A stretch of DNA of 64,000 bases, from NCBI GenBank assembly GCA_001768565.1, contig MEOE01000032.1, positions 1 to 64,000 of the forward strand, in the 5' to 3' direction. The notes below the pieces were generated by a model that saw only the letters and a list, made by a program, of their open reading frames with translations, did not search any database and was not told the origin of the DNA. A program made the position numbers and the translations under genes. Shown here piece after piece: positions 1,721 to 20,144 of the stretch. Every line of letters starts with the position of its first letter. Position 1 is the stretch's first letter. Source of the DNA: Bacteroidetes bacterium GWF2_33_16 (lineage in GTDB: Bacteria; Bacteroidota; Bacteroidia; Bacteroidales; UBA12077).

Positions 1721-3082
1721 ATGGAAAAACTAAAGAAAAGCATTATCGAATCACCCTATATGCGTTGGGGTATATTAATATTAGTAGGTTTAATCCTTTC
1801 TGTTAATTATTATTTTTACGATGCTTTTTCTACTTTAAAAGTATTGCTTAAACAAGAATTTAACTTTTCGAATACTCAATATGGGTTATTTGTAGCCTTC
1901 TATTCTATTCCAAATACTTTCCTGTTTATGGCAGTAATAGGTGGAATTATTCTCGATAAATTGGGTATTCGCCGAACTGGATTCATGTTTATATTCTTTA
2001 TGGCATTTGGTGCAGTGCTTACAGCCTATGGAGCATCAAAATATTATCAGGATGGCGGCCTTGGGCATCAATTTATGAGTTCATTTTTAGTAGGCTACTC
2101 ACCTGAACTTAAAATGATGCTTTTAGGGAGATTCTTTTTTGGATTAGGAGCCGAAACAAGCATTGTTGTAGTTAGTAAAATTCTGGTTAAATGGTTTAAA
2201 GGAAAAGACCTTGCTTTAGCATTTGGACTTAAAGTGGGCTTTGGTCGCTTAGGTACTTTTGCAGCATTAAATACATCACCCGTATTAGCTGGTAATGGCG
2301 AAGGATTAAATACAGCAATCTGGTTTGCAGCTATTTTAGTTTGTATTGGATTGCTTGCTTTTATGGTGTATATCCTATTCGATTTAAAAATTGATAGAAA
2401 AATTGAAAAAATAAGTCTTTTAACTGAAAAGGATAAGTTCAAAATGACCGATATAAGTGGATTGCTCACAAACCGATCTTATATTTTTATTGCATTGCTT
2501 TGTGTTACATTCTATTCGGCGGTTTTTCCGTTTGTAGCATTTGCTCCAGATTTTTTTGCAAATAAGTTTGGAATGACACCAATCCAAAGTGGACAAATTA
2601 CCTCCTTGCTGCCACTTGGAACCATGATTTTTACACCTCTTTTTGGATTTTTTATTGATCGTGTTGGTAAAAGTGCGAGTGTTATGATGTTTGGTTCATT
2701 TGTGCTGCTGATCGTTCATCTAAGTTTTGCGCTTACACATGTTTCTCCTTATGTTCCAATGGTTCTTCTTGGTGTTGCATTTTCATTGGTTCCCGCAGCA
2801 ATGTGGCCATCGATGGTAAAACTGGTTCCCGAAAAACAAATTGGTACTGCTTATGGATTAATGTATTCAATTCAAAATCTCGGTCTCTGGGGATTCCCCA
2901 TTTTGGCAGGATTTATTTTAGATGCCACAAACCCTGGCGATCCAGCTAAGTTGAATTATACCTATACAATTCTATTATTTGCTTTTCTGGGATTTCTTGG
3001 TGTGTTTTTTGGATTTCTCTTAAAATACAACGATAAAAAATATAACCTAGGAATAGATAAAGCCCTGAATAAATTAGAATAA
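1721..3082 (+). CDS. MFS transporter, MFSD1-like (second of tandem pair)
   Basis: This is a 453-residue protein with about 12 membrane segments, clearly homologous along its length to the preceding gene. Shared blocks include GGIILDKLGIRRTG (loop 2-3), LVKWFKGK, FYSAVFPFVAFAPDFF, SLVPAAMWPSM and GTAYGLMYSIQNLGL. The pair looks like an old tandem duplication, because the loops and N-termini have diverged. The substrate is unknown; a dipeptide or small organic solute is an inference from MFSD1-like blocks. It is convergent with purA and ends at a strong bidirectional terminator. Confidence 0.85.
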   Translation: MEKLKKSIIESPYMRWGILILVGLILSVNYYFYDAFSTLKVLLKQEFNFSNTQYGLFVAFYSIPNTFLFMAVIGGIILDKLGIRRTGFMFIFFMAFGAVLTAYGASKYYQDGGLGHQFMSSFLVGYSPELKMMLLGRFFFGLGAETSIVVVSKILVKWFKGKDLALAFGLKVGFGRLGTFAALNTSPVLAGNGEGLNTAIWFAAILVCIGLLAFMVYILFDLKIDRKIEKISLLTEKDKFKMTDISGLLTNRSYIFIALLCVTFYSAVFPFVAFAPDFFANKFGMTPIQSGQITSLLPLGTMIFTPLFGFFIDRVGKSASVMMFGSFVLLIVHLSFALTHVSPYVPMVLLGVAFSLVPAAMWPSMVKLVPEKQIGTAYGLMYSIQNLGLWGFPILAGFILDATNPGDPAKLNYTYTILLFAFLGFLGVFFGFLLKYNDKKYNLGIDKALNKLE

Positions 3083-3084
3083 TG

Positions 3085-3126
3085 AAAAACCCGATGAAAA
3101 GTTGAAGAACTTTTCATCGGGTTTTT
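3085..3126. terminator. Bidirectional terminator between MFS gene and purA
   Basis: A perfect 19-bp inverted repeat (3085-3103 and 3108-3126) surrounds a GAAG loop. It contains CCCGATGAAAAG and begins and ends in A5/T5 runs, so it can terminate both convergent genes. Confidence 0.9.
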
Positions 3127-13480: not shown

Positions 13481-16400
13481 ATGCACAAAACTATTAAAAA
13501 AATATCTAAAATATCGATTATTTTTATTCTGGTGTTAATTATAATACCTGTTTCCGCATATTTTATTTTGCAAAGCTCCCGTGTACAAACATATCTGGTT
13601 CGTATAATTACAAATAAGATATCAGAAAATCTGGATGCAAAGTTTTCTATCGAATCGGTTAATTATAGTTTTTTTAACCGGGTAATTCTCAATAACGTAT
13701 ATATTCAAGACCAATATAATGATACCTTGTTGTTTTCTGAAAAGCTTACCATAAGCATAAATGGAATTAATCGCGATTCAAAAGAAATAGATATTAATAA
13801 GGTTGATCTTTATCATACCAGGTTTTATTTGTATAAAGACTCCACGGCAGCAATCAATATTAAGTTTATTACCGACCAGTTTAAAAGCAAGGATACCACA
13901 AAAACAGACAACCCAAAATGGAAGTTAGATATAAGAAATATTGAAATGAGGGAATCAATTTTCAAGTATCATACAAATAGAAGTCGTAAGAAAACTCCTG
14001 GAGTTGATTTCAATAACATGGTTTGTTACATTAAGCACTTAGATATTAGAGATTTGGGAATAGATAATGGAGTAGTTTCGTTTTTAATCAGGAGGTTGGT
14101 ATTTATCGAAAGATCAGGTTTTGATGTATATAGCATGAAAGCTCATATGAGTATTGGTGATGATCATATGAAGTTTAGAAATATTACAATTAGAACGGCT
14201 AATTCATATATTATGGCCGATTCAGTCTCGTTTCGCCATAACGATTATGATGATTATAAAGATTTTAATGGTTTAATAAAACTCGATATTGCCTTTAAAG
14301 AATCAAATGTTAGTTTGATGGATATTGGTTTTTTCGCAACTAAACTAAAAGATATTCAATTAAATGTGGGATTATCTGGATATTTTTATGGGCGGATAAG
14401 TTCCCTAAAAGGTAAAAATGTACGCTTGCAGGTTGGTAAACAAACCGAATTACTTACAGATTTTAACTTTAATGGATTACCCAACATTGATCAGACTTTT
14501 ATTTTTATTGATTTTAAGAAACTTACGACCTTTGCATCCGATTTTGAAATTATTAATCGCTTTAATAAACCTAATAAACAGATAAGTTTTCCATCATACT
14601 TAAATAGGCTGGGGAAGATGAGTTACGAAGGTAATTTTACTGGTTTCGTAGAAGATTTTGTTACGTATGGTAGATTTGTTTCAGCTCTTGGAAATGCATC
14701 AACAGATATTTCGCTTAAGCCTTTAGAAGGTAAAAATCTTGCAATAAATGGGAAACTTAAAACATCTGGTTTTGATCTTGGACAATTATTTAATAGTACT
14801 GATAATATTGGGAAAATAAGTTTTAACGCTCAGATAAATGGAACAATTGGCAAAAATAAAACTATTGCAACCAGAACTGAAGGTATTATAAACAGCATTG
14901 AAATAAATAATTATACTTATCAGAATGTAATAATCGATGGTTTTCTTACCGAGAAGAAATATGATGGTTTTTTGAGTATAACTGACCCAAATATTGAACT
15001 TGATTTTAGCGGGGGGATTGATTTCTCACAACAGATACCTGTATTTAATTTTTCTGCAAGTGTTCCAAAAGCTAATCTTTTTGGGTTAAATATTGATAAA
15101 AAGGATACTACTGCCTTATTATCTTTTGATGTAGATGCCAATTTTATTGGTAATAATATTGATAATGCTATTGGTGAAATTAACTTTAGAAAAACTGAAT
15201 ATAGCAAATCTGATGATACTATTAAGTTTGAAACACTACAACTTTCCTCTGAACAGTTTTCCGATACTCATAAAATAACGCTTAAATCTGATTATTTAGA
15301 TGCATTATTATATGGAACTTACAAATCAAAAACACTTGTTAAGTCAATAAAAGGTCTCTTTTATAACTATCTGCCTTCTCTGATTCAATCAAAAGAAGAC
15401 ACACTAAGAATAGATTATCCAAATAACTTTAAAGTTGATGTACATCTGAAAAATACTACAATGCTAAGTAAATTGTTTTTACCCGATATTTATTTCGCCG
15501 ACAATTCTAATCTGGAATTTAAATATGGAGCTCATGAAAGTCGTTTTTTTCTTACTGCATCAACTACTGAACTTAAGTATAAACAGCATACTTTTAGTGA
15601 TTTAAGTATAGTTACTTTCTCAGATGATTCGCTTTTTACCGCCATTACAAAAATTAGGAAAGCAGTATTTAATAATTATTTTATACTCGAAGACCTTCGC
15701 ACAACATCATTAACAAGCAACGACGAAATAAACGTAAGATTTGACTGGAACAACAAGGATACTGTTGAGTATCAGGGCAAAATATTAGCATCAGCCAAAA
15801 TAAGGAAGGAAAATCCGAGTCAAAAACCATCCTTTGATATTGTTGTTTTACCCTCCGATATTGTTATTAAAGATTCGTTATGGAGAATGAATCGTGCACT
15901 TATTCACATTGATACAACATCAATAAAAATCAATGATTTTATTATAAATCATAACGATCAATTCTTTAAAATTAAAGGACTGATTTCTGAAAACAAAAAC
16001 GACTCTCTTTTCATTGATTTTGGAAATCTAAATCTTGCTCACATAAATGTAATAACTAAAGATATAGGCTTAAATTTTAATGGTTTTATTAATGGGAATG
16101 CCAGTTTTTCTAATATGTATGAAAGTCCATTATTTAGCTCAAATATTATTGTAGATAACTTAATGCTTAACGACGAATTAATTGGAAATACATTTATTGT
16201 TAGTCGTTGGAAAAAAGAAAAAAGGGCAATAAACCTGAGTGCTTTTACGAATCTTGCCGATATTCGAAATTTGGTTGTTGAAGGAGAATACTTGCCCGAG
16301 AATCATAATCTTGATTTTACAATTTCATTAAATAAGTTTAATGCAAGTATATTAAATTCATTCCTAAAGAGCTTTGCCTCAAATATAAAGGGAAAAGTTA

Positions 16401-17932
16401 GTGGCGATGTTTCATTAAAAGGGACGTTTAAAAATCCTGAATTTAATGGGTTGTTAACAATGGAAAAGGGAGCTCTTACAATTGATTATTTAAAAACTAG
16501 ATACAGCTTTTCATCTGATGTGGGAATTAAAAATAACTCAATTATTTTTGATAACATTTCGGTTTCTGATCCACAAAAAAATAAAGCATTAACAAATGGT
16601 TCAATAACATTTGGTGCAAAGAAAAGAATAGATTATAATTTTACTATCAGACCCAATAATTTCTTAGCACTAAATACTTCAGGCAAAGACAACGAGATGT
16701 TTTATGGTATAGCTTACATGACAGGTGTTATTACTATTAATGGCGGCAGAGGAATTATTGCCATAGATATTTCTGGTAAAACCGAGAAGAATACCAAACT
16801 AAATATTCCAATCTCAAAATCTGATAGAATCGAAGAGTCAGGATTTATTACATTTGTCAATACCGAGAATAAAGTTAATGTTGTGCAGCAAGACAATTTA
16901 ATTTATAATTTATCTGGTTTTCGATTGAATTTCGATTTGCAGGTTACTCAAGATGCCGAAACGCAGTTAATCTTTGATTCTACAATTGGCGATTTAATTC
17001 GTGCCAAGGGTGATGGCGATCTTAAGCTCGAAATTGATAAAAATGGAAATTTTAATATGTTTGGTGATTATAATATGGAAGAAGGAGATTACTTATTTAC
17101 ATTAGGAAATATTCTAAATAAAAAGTTTGATATCGAACGAGGAGGAAGAATTACCTGGAATGGGAGTCCCTATAATGCAATTATTGATATTGAAGCAATT
17201 TATAATCTCCGTGCTCCTTTAACTAACTTGTTTCCATTAGATTCATCTGATTATTACCGAAAGAGAATTCCAGTTGAATGCCAAATTTTCATGAGTCAAA
17301 GCCTTAAAAATCCAGACGTTAAATTTAATATTGAATTACCAACCTCCGATGAAGAAACAAAAAATAGAGTGAGAACCGTTATTAATACACAAGAAAAGCT
17401 TAATAAGCAGTTTTTATCACTATTGTTTATCAACAACTTTATTTACGATGAACCCGACCAAACAAATTTTGGAATTGCCGAATATGGCGCAGGCTCAGCT
17501 ACTACTACCACTACAGAGCTTTTATCAAATCAATTAAGCCATTGGTTGTCGCAGATTAGCGATGAATGGGATATTGGTATTAATTATCGTCCAGGCGACG
17601 AAATTAGTAAAGATCAGGTTGACGTGGCATTGTCAACCCAATTGCTGAACGACAGAGTTCTTTTAAATGGAAATGTAGGTTATGGAGGTCAAGCTGAACA
17701 AGCTAGTAATATTGTTGGTGATGTTAATTTAGAAGTTAAGCTAAACAAAAGTGGAAAACTTAGAGTAAAAGCATTTAATAAAGCGAATGATAAGTTAATT
17801 TACGAGGAATCTCCATATACTCAGGGCGTTGGTATTTTTTATCGGGAAGAGTTTAATACTTTTTCTGGACTAATGCGTCGTTTCTGGAATAAGCTTACAG
17901 GTAAAAAAGAAGACGAAATAACTCCTAAATAG
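13481..17932 (+). CDS. tamB: TamB-like translocation/assembly module protein (DUF490)
   Basis: This very large (1483 residues) envelope protein has an N-terminal membrane anchor at about 10-31 and a long periplasmic body of AsmA/TamB-like beta repeats. The C-terminal DUF490 region (about 1040-1440) includes GDGDLKLEIDKNGNFNMFG and GGRITWNGSPYNAIIDIEA. In Proteobacteria TamB works with TamA in outer-membrane protein assembly, and the wider family is linked to phospholipid transfer between membranes. In Bacteroidota it often stands beside tsaD, as here. No TamA/BamA homologue lies in this window. The exbB promoter begins 38 bp after its stop. Confidence 0.93.
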   Translation: MHKTIKKISKISIIFILVLIIIPVSAYFILQSSRVQTYLVRIITNKISENLDAKFSIESVNYSFFNRVILNNVYIQDQYNDTLLFSEKLTISINGINRDSKEIDINKVDLYHTRFYLYKDSTAAINIKFITDQFKSKDTTKTDNPKWKLDIRNIEMRESIFKYHTNRSRKKTPGVDFNNMVCYIKHLDIRDLGIDNGVVSFLIRRLVFIERSGFDVYSMKAHMSIGDDHMKFRNITIRTANSYIMADSVSFRHNDYDDYKDFNGLIKLDIAFKESNVSLMDIGFFATKLKDIQLNVGLSGYFYGRISSLKGKNVRLQVGKQTELLTDFNFNGLPNIDQTFIFIDFKKLTTFASDFEIINRFNKPNKQISFPSYLNRLGKMSYEGNFTGFVEDFVTYGRFVSALGNASTDISLKPLEGKNLAINGKLKTSGFDLGQLFNSTDNIGKISFNAQINGTIGKNKTIATRTEGIINSIEINNYTYQNVIIDGFLTEKKYDGFLSITDPNIELDFSGGIDFSQQIPVFNFSASVPKANLFGLNIDKKDTTALLSFDVDANFIGNNIDNAIGEINFRKTEYSKSDDTIKFETLQLSSEQFSDTHKITLKSDYLDALLYGTYKSKTLVKSIKGLFYNYLPSLIQSKEDTLRIDYPNNFKVDVHLKNTTMLSKLFLPDIYFADNSNLEFKYGAHESRFFLTASTTELKYKQHTFSDLSIVTFSDDSLFTAITKIRKAVFNNYFILEDLRTTSLTSNDEINVRFDWNNKDTVEYQGKILASAKIRKENPSQKPSFDIVVLPSDIVIKDSLWRMNRALIHIDTTSIKINDFIINHNDQFFKIKGLISENKNDSLFIDFGNLNLAHINVITKDIGLNFNGFINGNASFSNMYESPLFSSNIIVDNLMLNDELIGNTFIVSRWKKEKRAINLSAFTNLADIRNLVVEGEYLPENHNLDFTISLNKFNASILNSFLKSFASNIKGKVSGDVSLKGTFKNPEFNGLLTMEKGALTIDYLKTRYSFSSDVGIKNNSIIFDNISVSDPQKNKALTNGSITFGAKKRIDYNFTIRPNNFLALNTSGKDNEMFYGIAYMTGVITINGGRGIIAIDISGKTEKNTKLNIPISKSDRIEESGFITFVNTENKVNVVQQDNLIYNLSGFRLNFDLQVTQDAETQLIFDSTIGDLIRAKGDGDLKLEIDKNGNFNMFGDYNMEEGDYLFTLGNILNKKFDIERGGRITWNGSPYNAIIDIEAIYNLRAPLTNLFPLDSSDYYRKRIPVECQIFMSQSLKNPDVKFNIELPTSDEETKNRVRTVINTQEKLNKQFLSLLFINNFIYDEPDQTNFGIAEYGAGSATTTTTELLSNQLSHWLSQISDEWDIGINYRPGDEISKDQVDVALSTQLLNDRVLLNGNVGYGGQAEQASNIVGDVNLEVKLNKSGKLRVKAFNKANDKLIYEESPYTQGVGIFYREEFNTFSGLMRRFWNKLTGKKEDEITPK

Positions 17933-17970
17933 CTTTTTAAATGAGTACAAAAATTTTAACTTGCGAAATA

Positions 17971-17987
17971 TTGGCACGTCAATTGCG
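17971..17987 (+). promoter_or_regulatory. Sigma-54 (RpoN) promoter upstream of exbB
   Basis: TTGGCACG-TCAA-TTGC (17971-17986) matches the sigma-54 consensus TTGGCACGnnnnTTGC. GG (17973-17974) and GC (17985-17986) are separated by exactly 10 nt. The predicted start of transcription is near 17998, about 23 nt before the exbB ATG at 18021. Sigma-54 promoters need an AAA+ activator; none is encoded in this window. Confidence 0.8.
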
Positions 17988-18020
17988 TTTAATAAATATC
18001 AAAATCTTAATACATTACAT

Positions 18021-18719
18021 ATGAATAATATACTATTTATTCTCTTACAAATTGATTTAGCTGAAGATCTTACAAATCCCGCTTTAACTGGCGAATTAAA
18101 ATTATCGTTTTGGGAAATGGCCATGAAAGGCGGTTGGATTATGATTCCTATTGTTCTTCTCTCGTTTGTTGCCGTTTATATCTTTTTTGAGCGATTTTTT
18201 GCAATTAAAAAAGCTTCTCAAACAGATATTAATTTTATGAATAAAATCAAGGATTATATTCATGATGATAAAATTGAATCAGCCTTAGCGCTATGTCAAT
18301 CGACTAATAGCCCAGTTTCACGAATGATAGAAAAAGGATTGCAACGCATCGGACGTCCATTAAATGATATTAATGCAGCGATTGAAAATGTTGGAAATCT
18401 TGAGATTACAAAACTCGAAACAAACCTGCCAACCTTAGCTACTGTTTCCGGAGCTGCTCCAATGATAGGCTTTTTAGGAACGGTTATGGGTATGATTCAG
18501 GCTTTCTATTCAATGTCGATGGCTGGAAATAATATTGATGTAAGTCGTTTGGCCGATGGTATTTATACTGCAATGGTAACCACTGTTGCCGGACTTATTG
18601 TTGGTATTTTGGCATACTTAGCTTATAATATTTTGGTTGCTAAAGTCGAAAAAGTAGTTTTTCAACTCGAAGCAAATACATCAGAATTTATGGACTTGTT
18701 GAATGAGCCAGTTGAATAA
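18021..18719 (+). CDS. exbB: ExbB/TolQ-type proton channel subunit
   Basis: This 232-residue MotA/TolQ/ExbB-family protein forms, with ExbD, the proton-driven motor that energises TonB. Three membrane segments are seen: GGWIMIPIVLLSFVAVYIFF, then one beginning with the TLATVSGAAPMIGFLGTV signature, then TTVAGLIVGILAYLAYNIL. The frame extends back to a TTG at 17961, but that would overlap the sigma-54 promoter. The ATG at 18021 is the true start. It is followed by exbD (18-bp gap) and a TonB gene. Confidence 0.94.
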   Translation: MNNILFILLQIDLAEDLTNPALTGELKLSFWEMAMKGGWIMIPIVLLSFVAVYIFFERFFAIKKASQTDINFMNKIKDYIHDDKIESALALCQSTNSPVSRMIEKGLQRIGRPLNDINAAIENVGNLEITKLETNLPTLATVSGAAPMIGFLGTVMGMIQAFYSMSMAGNNIDVSRLADGIYTAMVTTVAGLIVGILAYLAYNILVAKVEKVVFQLEANTSEFMDLLNEPVE

Positions 18720-18737
18720 ATTATAAAAATTTAAACC

Positions 18738-19136
18738 ATGGCCCTAAGAAGAAGAAATAAAGTAAATGCGTCATTTAGCATGGCATCCATGACAGATATT
18801 GTATTTTTATTACTTATCTTTTTTATGGTAACATCTACTTTGATTGCTCCAAATGCATTAAAATTATTGTTGCCCCGAAGTTCGCATCAAACACCTGCAA
18901 ATGCAGTTACAACAGTATCTATAACTGCAGTACTTGATTATTATATTGAAACAACACCTGTATCGATAGAAGATATTGAAGGGATTTTAAAAAATCGATT
19001 TATCTCAGAAAATATAACTGAACCTACTATATCATTACATACTGATAGATCTGTACCTGTCGAAAATGTTGTTAAAATAATGAATATAGCAAAAGATAAT
19101 AAATGGAAGTTAATACTTGCAACAACAGCAAATTAA
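18738..19136 (+). CDS. exbD: ExbD/TolR-type biopolymer transport protein
   Basis: This 132-residue protein has one N-terminal membrane helix carrying the conserved Asp (ASMTDIVFLLLIFFMVTS) and a periplasmic domain. With ExbB it makes the proton-motive-force motor. It sits in exbB-exbD-tonB order, with only 3 bp to the TonB gene. Confidence 0.94.
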   Translation: MALRRRNKVNASFSMASMTDIVFLLLIFFMVTSTLIAPNALKLLLPRSSHQTPANAVTTVSITAVLDYYIETTPVSIEDIEGILKNRFISENITEPTISLHTDRSVPVENVVKIMNIAKDNKWKLILATTAN

Positions 19137-19139
19137 ATT

Positions 19140-19967
19140 ATGTCGATTTTTAATACTAAATATAAAAGAACAGGACTTGCCGGAACAATCGTTTTTCACT
19201 CGATTATTCTTGTTCTTATAGTATTATTTGGTTACACAACACCACTTCCATTGCCATCAGAGGAAGGTATTCTTATTAACTTTGGTGATGAGGATCAGGG
19301 GATGGGACAAGAGGAACCTCAATTTTCTGAAACAACAGAGCAGCAAGCAGCCAATCAGGAATCACAAGAGCCCGCACAAGAATCTGTTTCAGAAGAAACC
19401 GACGAAGGGAATCTAACACAAGATTTTGAAGAAGCTCCTGTTGTTAAAAAAGAAACAAAGAAAACAGAAAAAAAAGAAGTTAAAATAGAGCCAAAAACTG
19501 AACCTAAACCAGAAGAAAAAACTGAAGTGGTAAAGGAGCAGCAAGTTGATGCTCGTGCATTATTTCCTGGCAGGAACCCAAATACAACATCTACAACTGG
19601 CGAAGGTGTAACCGGTTTTGAGGGAAATCAAGGCTCGAAAACCGGATCTATTGACTCAGATAACCATAGTGGCGGGAATAGTACTGGCGGTAAAGGGTAT
19701 GATTTTAGTCTGGCAGGCAGAAATCCCGAATCTATTCCTAAACCAGAATATAACTACCAGAAAGATGGAAAAGTTGTTGTGGAAATTACTGTCGACAAAT
19801 TAGGCAAGGTTACTGATGCTGTGCCTGGTGCAAAGGGTAGTACAACTTTAGATGCAAATCTTTTAGCCGCCGCAAAAAAAGCTGCTCTCTTGGCTAAGTT
19901 CGATAGAAAACCAGATGCTCCTGCATACCAAAAAGGTACAATTACCTATTACTTTAAATTACAGTAA
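19140..19967 (+). CDS. tonB: TonB-family energy transducer
   Basis: This 275-residue protein has an N-terminal membrane helix (about 14-33), then a long Glu/Pro/Lys-rich linker (about 40-145, such as KIEPKTEPKPEEKTEV) that would span the periplasm. A Gly/Ser/Asn-rich stretch and a C-terminal TonB domain (about 200-275, VVVEITVDKLGKVTDAVPG) follow. It would pass ExbB-ExbD energy to outer-membrane receptors. It is the last gene of the putative sigma-54 transcript. Its stop codon abuts the palindromic element at 19969. Confidence 0.9.
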   Translation: MSIFNTKYKRTGLAGTIVFHSIILVLIVLFGYTTPLPLPSEEGILINFGDEDQGMGQEEPQFSETTEQQAANQESQEPAQESVSEETDEGNLTQDFEEAPVVKKETKKTEKKEVKIEPKTEPKPEEKTEVVKEQQVDARALFPGRNPNTTSTTGEGVTGFEGNQGSKTGSIDSDNHSGGNSTGGKGYDFSLAGRNPESIPKPEYNYQKDGKVVVEITVDKLGKVTDAVPGAKGSTTLDANLLAAAKKAALLAKFDRKPDAPAYQKGTITYYFKLQ

Positions 19968-19968
19968 A

Positions 19969-20144
19969 AAAATGATGAGGCTGTGTCAAAAGCCTCTTTC
20001 TTCATATTCAGGCTTCGACAAGCCTGACTGCCGTCAGGCAGGCTCAGCCTGACCATTGATTATTTGCTCGTTGTCATTTTGTCCCGAAAGCTTTCGGGAG
20101 TCGAAAAATAAACAATAATCCTTCTTTTGATACAGCCTCATTTT
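19969..20144. repeat. MITE-like palindromic element with terminal inverted repeats
   Basis: The ends are inverted repeats: AAAATGATGAGGCTGTGTCA (19969-19988, then AAAG) and CTTTTGATACAGCCTCATTT (20124-20143, then T). They differ by one 3-nt gap and one transition. Inside are stacked hairpins: CAGGCTT/AAGCCTG (20009-20026), CTGCC/GGCAG (20028-20041), CAGGCT/AGCCTG (20039-20051) and the perfect palindrome TCCCGAAAGCTTTCGGGA (20082-20099). It is more GC-rich than its surroundings and lies exactly between two convergent genes. It may be a MITE/REP-type mobile repeat and would also terminate both genes. Confidence 0.7.

Follow-up and report, generated by a model that had tools for sequence, protein, structure and literature searches.

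A perfect sigma-54 promoter match, found in one species only, lies beside a conserved -7 box upstream of exbB-exbD-tonB

In the window analyzed here, which is the whole 64,000-nucleotide stretch of the Bacteroidetes bacterium GWF2_33_16 contig MEOE01000032.1 that was examined, a match to the sigma-54 promoter consensus stands in front of an exbB-exbD-tonB operon. A first-pass annotation took this match to imply that outer-membrane energy coupling is under activator-dependent, on/off control. Does it control the operon? The features of the locus are as follows.

13481..17932, + strand: tamB-like gene, adjoining exbB upstream on the same strand
17957..17964, + strand: predicted -7 promoter box TAACTTGC (TAnnTTGY, SM5-like), with a start predicted at about 17969
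17971..17986, + strand: sigma-54 -24/-12 consensus match TTGGCACG-TCAA-TTGC, present in this species only
17986..17991, + strand: conserved short box CGTTTA in the exbB leader, from the alignment
18021..18719, + strand: exbB-like gene (MotA/TolQ/ExbB family, 232 aa; ATG at 18021)
18738..19136, + strand: exbD/tolR-like gene (132 aa)
19140..19967, + strand: tonB-like gene (TonB C-terminal domain, 275 aa)

The match at 17971-17986 reads TTGGCACGTCAATTGC, in which GG (17973-17974) is followed by ten bases and then GC (17985-17986), and the flanks of this GG-N10-GC core are TTGGCAC and TTGC. It lies 34 bases from the exbB ATG and only 38 bp from the tamB stop, and transcription from it would be predicted to start at about 17998. 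The annotation had described a correctly spaced site about 34 bp before exbB and had seen no second one in the window. Both statements are confirmed and the second extends to the genome, since exact TGGCACG-N4-TTGC occurs once in the 64-kb window and once in the 4.33-Mb genome, in both cases at exbB. A further 18 sites in the genome have one mismatch, and a reversed control pattern gave 10 in all.

The names of the three genes hold broadly. MotA_ExbB, ExbD and TonB_Cterm domains were found within this one operon, as the annotation's naming would have it; for the exbB and exbD products, however, TolQ/TolR models outscore ExbB/ExbD models (all scores being below the equivalog cut-offs), and the nearest solved structures are TolQ/TolR chains. 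As judged from these comparisons, a Ton-like and a Tol-like motor would both be compatible with the operon. A second motor cluster, at L275 (G000:C23:24500-32500), encodes an ExbB-like protein of 271 aa, a small membrane protein and two ExbD-like proteins. After tonB, window positions 20033-20110 carry GC-rich inverted repeats (GTCAGGCAGGCTCAGCCTGAC and others nearby) that resemble a short interspersed repeat or a terminator.

The annotation had made its reading depend on the presence of an rpoN gene. The genome has one (PF04552 at G000:C23:401708-402181, E 5e-52), together with 13 sigma-54 activators (bEBPs, AAA+; strong PF00158 matches). Most of these activators have as neighbors a gene for a kinase-like protein and one for an FtsX/MacB-like permease, usually in divergent orientation, and TGGCAY-N5-TTGV lies upstream of most of the permease genes so linked. 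Such activator modules recur at L159-L169 (G000 contigs C13, C24, C6, C4, C28, C23, C18 and C20), and their activator-permease spacers contain apparently module-specific dyads upstream of TGGCAY-N5-TTGV. From the lon and htpG promoters and those of FtsX-type permeases we derived a lineage sigma-54 motif, TTGGCAY-N5-TTGV, which matches exactly at 20 places in the genome versus 7 for its reversed control. Half of them (10/20) are intergenic and face a gene, namely lon, htpG, four permeases, two secreted proteins, an ECF sigma gene and exbB; groES has a related site in which the GG and TG are kept. Because this lineage uses TGGCAY-N5-TTGV, we re-scored the exbB site with the lineage motif, which it fits. 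The proteobacterial consensus was rejected as the sole yardstick, with TTGGCAC-N5-TTGC found 10 times in 20 genus genomes versus 8 times for the reversed control.

Chance rates were calculated with a first-order model based on 232 kb of the genome's own sequence. Under this model, the whole genome should contain 0.6 copies of TGGCACG-N4-TTGC, and all of its gene-oriented upstream regions, taken together, 0.0065. For TTGGCAC-N5-TTGC, 0.027 occurrences are expected in all upstream regions versus two seen (lon and exbB), and for the looser lineage motif TTGGCAY-N5-TTGV, 0.45 are expected in oriented upstream regions versus 10 seen. On sequence alone, these excesses suggest that the exbB match is unlikely to be a product of chance, with the caveat that it was picked for being perfect, and on the same grounds it would belong with the real sigma-54 sites.

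In Flavobacterium psychrophilum, the SM4 motif comprises the sigma-54 promoters of GroESL, Lon, HtpG, DnaK and GrpE (PMC9723704). The exbB match has the same -24/-12 layout as these Bacteroidota stress-gene promoters, and lon and htpG of the present genome, which have exact TTGGCAY-N5-TTGV, are likewise similar to them. However, the stress-gene sites are conserved genus-wide and have CTGACA/TGTCAG alongside, and the exbB site has neither property. This element lies near the conserved sigma-54 sites of the stress genes lon, groES and htpG: at lon (L170, about 3049-3110) 16 of 17 promoters have it at +50, counted from the start of the site (49 in the own genome), at groES (L158, about 2870-2950) it is upstream of nearly all sites, and at htpG (L233) it stands at -16 in three of four promoters. 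CTGACA/TGTCAG may be the binding site of a receiver-less activator encoded beside an lptE-like gene (G000:C23:83668). It is absent at exbB, and positions 17700-18020 contain no activator-binding dyad of note, just short palindromes; activators can act from other positions, such as within tamB.

Conservation of the -24/-12 elements upstream of exbB had been proposed in the annotation as a test of its reading, which a lack of such conservation would refute. We compared the exbB upstream regions of 23 same-family relatives and of 80 named Bacteroidales loci, two sets that overlap, and found a sigma-54 site comparable to that of exbB in 0 of 23 and 0 of 80, respectively. A scoring matrix made from 16 sigma-54 sites of this genome (scores 15.0-24.5) gave the exbB site a score of 16.3; the best relative scored 13.1, with a match 127 bp upstream that falls within the end of the tamB coding sequence. 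Positional turnover was rejected, as the matrix scan found no sigma-54 site elsewhere before exbB in relatives. Control sites in the same genomes were conserved: the lon site is kept in 16 of the 17 relatives that have the upstream region, the groES site in 14 of 14, and the sites of htpG, a secreted-protein gene and the ECF sigma gene in all three nearest species (3/3 each). One other site is not conserved; it belongs to a permease whose copy in the relative has a different context (three genomes compared).

The nearest species suggest how the match arose. A lon tree places G012 as sister to the window genome (99/95), followed by G006 and G007, and at the aligned place these three read TTGAAACATCAATTAC, TTGAACAATCAGTAAC and TTGATTAATAGTTTAC, respectively. 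All three have GA for GG and A for the G of the -12 element. Their 24-bp upstream flank keeps 19-22 of 24 positions, and the 16-mer itself keeps just 12, 8 and 7 of 16. By parsimony, the exbB match would be a gain of about four substitutions on this species' branch, and, as these alignments indicate, it is neither ancestral nor conserved as a control element. Over 85 compared columns, this species has seven private substitutions, three of which fall within the 16-mer; all three are A to G, at consensus positions and against the AT-rich composition. This pattern is weak evidence, because any newly perfect site would show it. Nor do we take the four consensus-directed changes to prove selection, since a newly perfect site must show them.

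Directly upstream of the match, the -7 box is conserved. TAnnTTTG or TAnnTTGY occupies the aligned place in 18 of 19 genus genomes, the own genome included, and the exception, G020, reads TAACTTTA. Most of the genus has TAnnTTTG; the window species shares the form TAACTTGC with its three nearest relatives. The housekeeping sigma factor of Bacteroidota (sigma-A) has TAnnTTTG as its -7 box, and the SM5 variant of the promoter, TAnnTTGY, has been mapped in F. psychrophilum equally far from the start (PMC9723704); TonB-ExbBD of F. psychrophilum is among the 5.8% of genes that are highly expressed in all samples (PMC9723704). The box is shared between exbB of this genus and known Bacteroidota promoters of the sigma-A and SM5 types, but the start at exbB is a predicted one, and an alignment judged by eye had no clear TTTG 19-21 nt upstream of the -7 box that could serve as a -33 element. 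The sigma-54 match begins directly after the -7 box, about where the transcript of the conserved promoter would begin, and its downstream end runs into the CGTTTA box, of which the C of the -12 GC is a part.

These two conserved boxes bear on whether the operon has a promoter of its own. Since no terminator-like site was found in the 88-bp gap between exbB and tamB, which is directly upstream on the same strand, read-through from tamB is possible. However, that read-through should be the only source of transcription and both boxes the work of chance is very improbable, as the -7 and CGTTTA boxes are conserved amid otherwise diverged non-coding sequence.

The -7 box bears equally on the proposal that exbB-exbD-tonB depends on sigma-54, with an activator as its on/off switch. 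A perfect match that is unique in the genome and has a low chance expectation speaks for such dependence, but the -7 box just upstream is conserved, the sigma-54 site is not, and the genome has a second ExbB-ExbD-ExbD cluster. With the -7 box in place, a lack of sigma-54 would not silence the operon. On/off control by this factor alone is unlikely, and we give the annotation's version, in which the whole system is switched, hardly any credence. What survives of its sigma-54 reading is the machinery (rpoN and 13 bEBPs) and the fit to the lineage motif; the switch itself is not supported.

We consider it probable, from these comparisons, that exbB-exbD-tonB is transcribed mainly from the conserved -7 promoter and that the sigma-54 match is a recent addition, either a chance occurrence or a secondary promoter that has only just arisen. 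Steady transcription of the operon would come from an ordinary -7 type promoter of the Bacteroidota kind (box 17957-17964, start near 17969), to which read-through from tamB possibly adds. In this species alone, about four substitutions just downstream of the -7 box would have created the perfect -24/-12 match. The match could probably bind sigma-54 holoenzyme, and whatever transcription it gave would come as a recent extra on top of the conserved promoter; we infer that its output is little or none. Sigma-54 binding in E. coli appears to be without transcriptional output at most sites (PMC4591121). Against this explanation, the match is too good for easy chance (0.027 of its class expected), the private A-to-G changes within the 16-mer count weakly, and the operon has the -7 box in its TAnnTTGY form.

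A serious rival is that the match is a recently acquired, working sigma-54 promoter that gives an activator-dependent boost under some stress, with the -7 promoter supplying basal expression; we regard this as possible, if doubtful. It carries weight because of the quality of the match, which fits both the general consensus and the lineage motif perfectly on the right strand and at the right distance to the ATG, because F. psychrophilum remFG-sprCDBF is preceded by a documented pair of sigma-54 and TAnnTTGY promoters (PMC9723704), and because sigma-54 links to exbB or TonB have been predicted in Xylella (PMC3224663) and in Flavobacteriia (PMC12316311). It also agrees with the presence of rpoN and 13 activators and with the fact that most other intergenic motif matches are plausible sigma-54 targets. 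Against it, the site is in no relative, whereas nearly all other tested sites are common to the nearest species, no activator dyad or CTGACA/TGTCAG was found nearby, and just 38 bp are left to the tamB stop.

The two predicted links differ in kind. In Xylella fastidiosa, an RpoN site is predicted before exbB-exbD-exbD2 (XF0010, TGGTCCGGCCAGTGCA at -63; PMC3224663), likewise in front of an exbB operon, but the phylum is unrelated, the site is weaker and the likeness is one of prediction only, not of homology between regulatory regions. In Flavobacteriia, predicted sigma-54 sites are statistically enriched at COG0810 (TonB), which was stated as an unconfirmed prediction (PMC12316311). This enrichment suggests a link between sigma-54 and TonB in Bacteroidota; however, it comes from another class, and COG0810 spans many TonB-domain proteins.

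We would suggest only tentatively that a housekeeping exbB-exbD-tonB operon gained, in one species, a functional sigma-54 promoter by about four point substitutions and so joined the sigma-54 stress network. Should the site prove to work, it would offer a clear example of a sigma-54 promoter arising in a single species through a few point changes, with the sister species showing the state before. If it is idle, it is a warning to hold even a perfect, well-placed consensus against relatives before claiming a regulatory switch.

The exbB leader of other families has a feature of its own. In Marinifilaceae and Prolixibacteraceae (loci L085-L128, e.g., L099:2840-2925), a hairpin followed by a T run (GCGAGATATAAT...ATTATATCTCGTTTTTT) lies about 50 nt before exbB, with both-sided changes in 3 of 12 pairs, and may be the terminator of the upstream gene or an attenuator.
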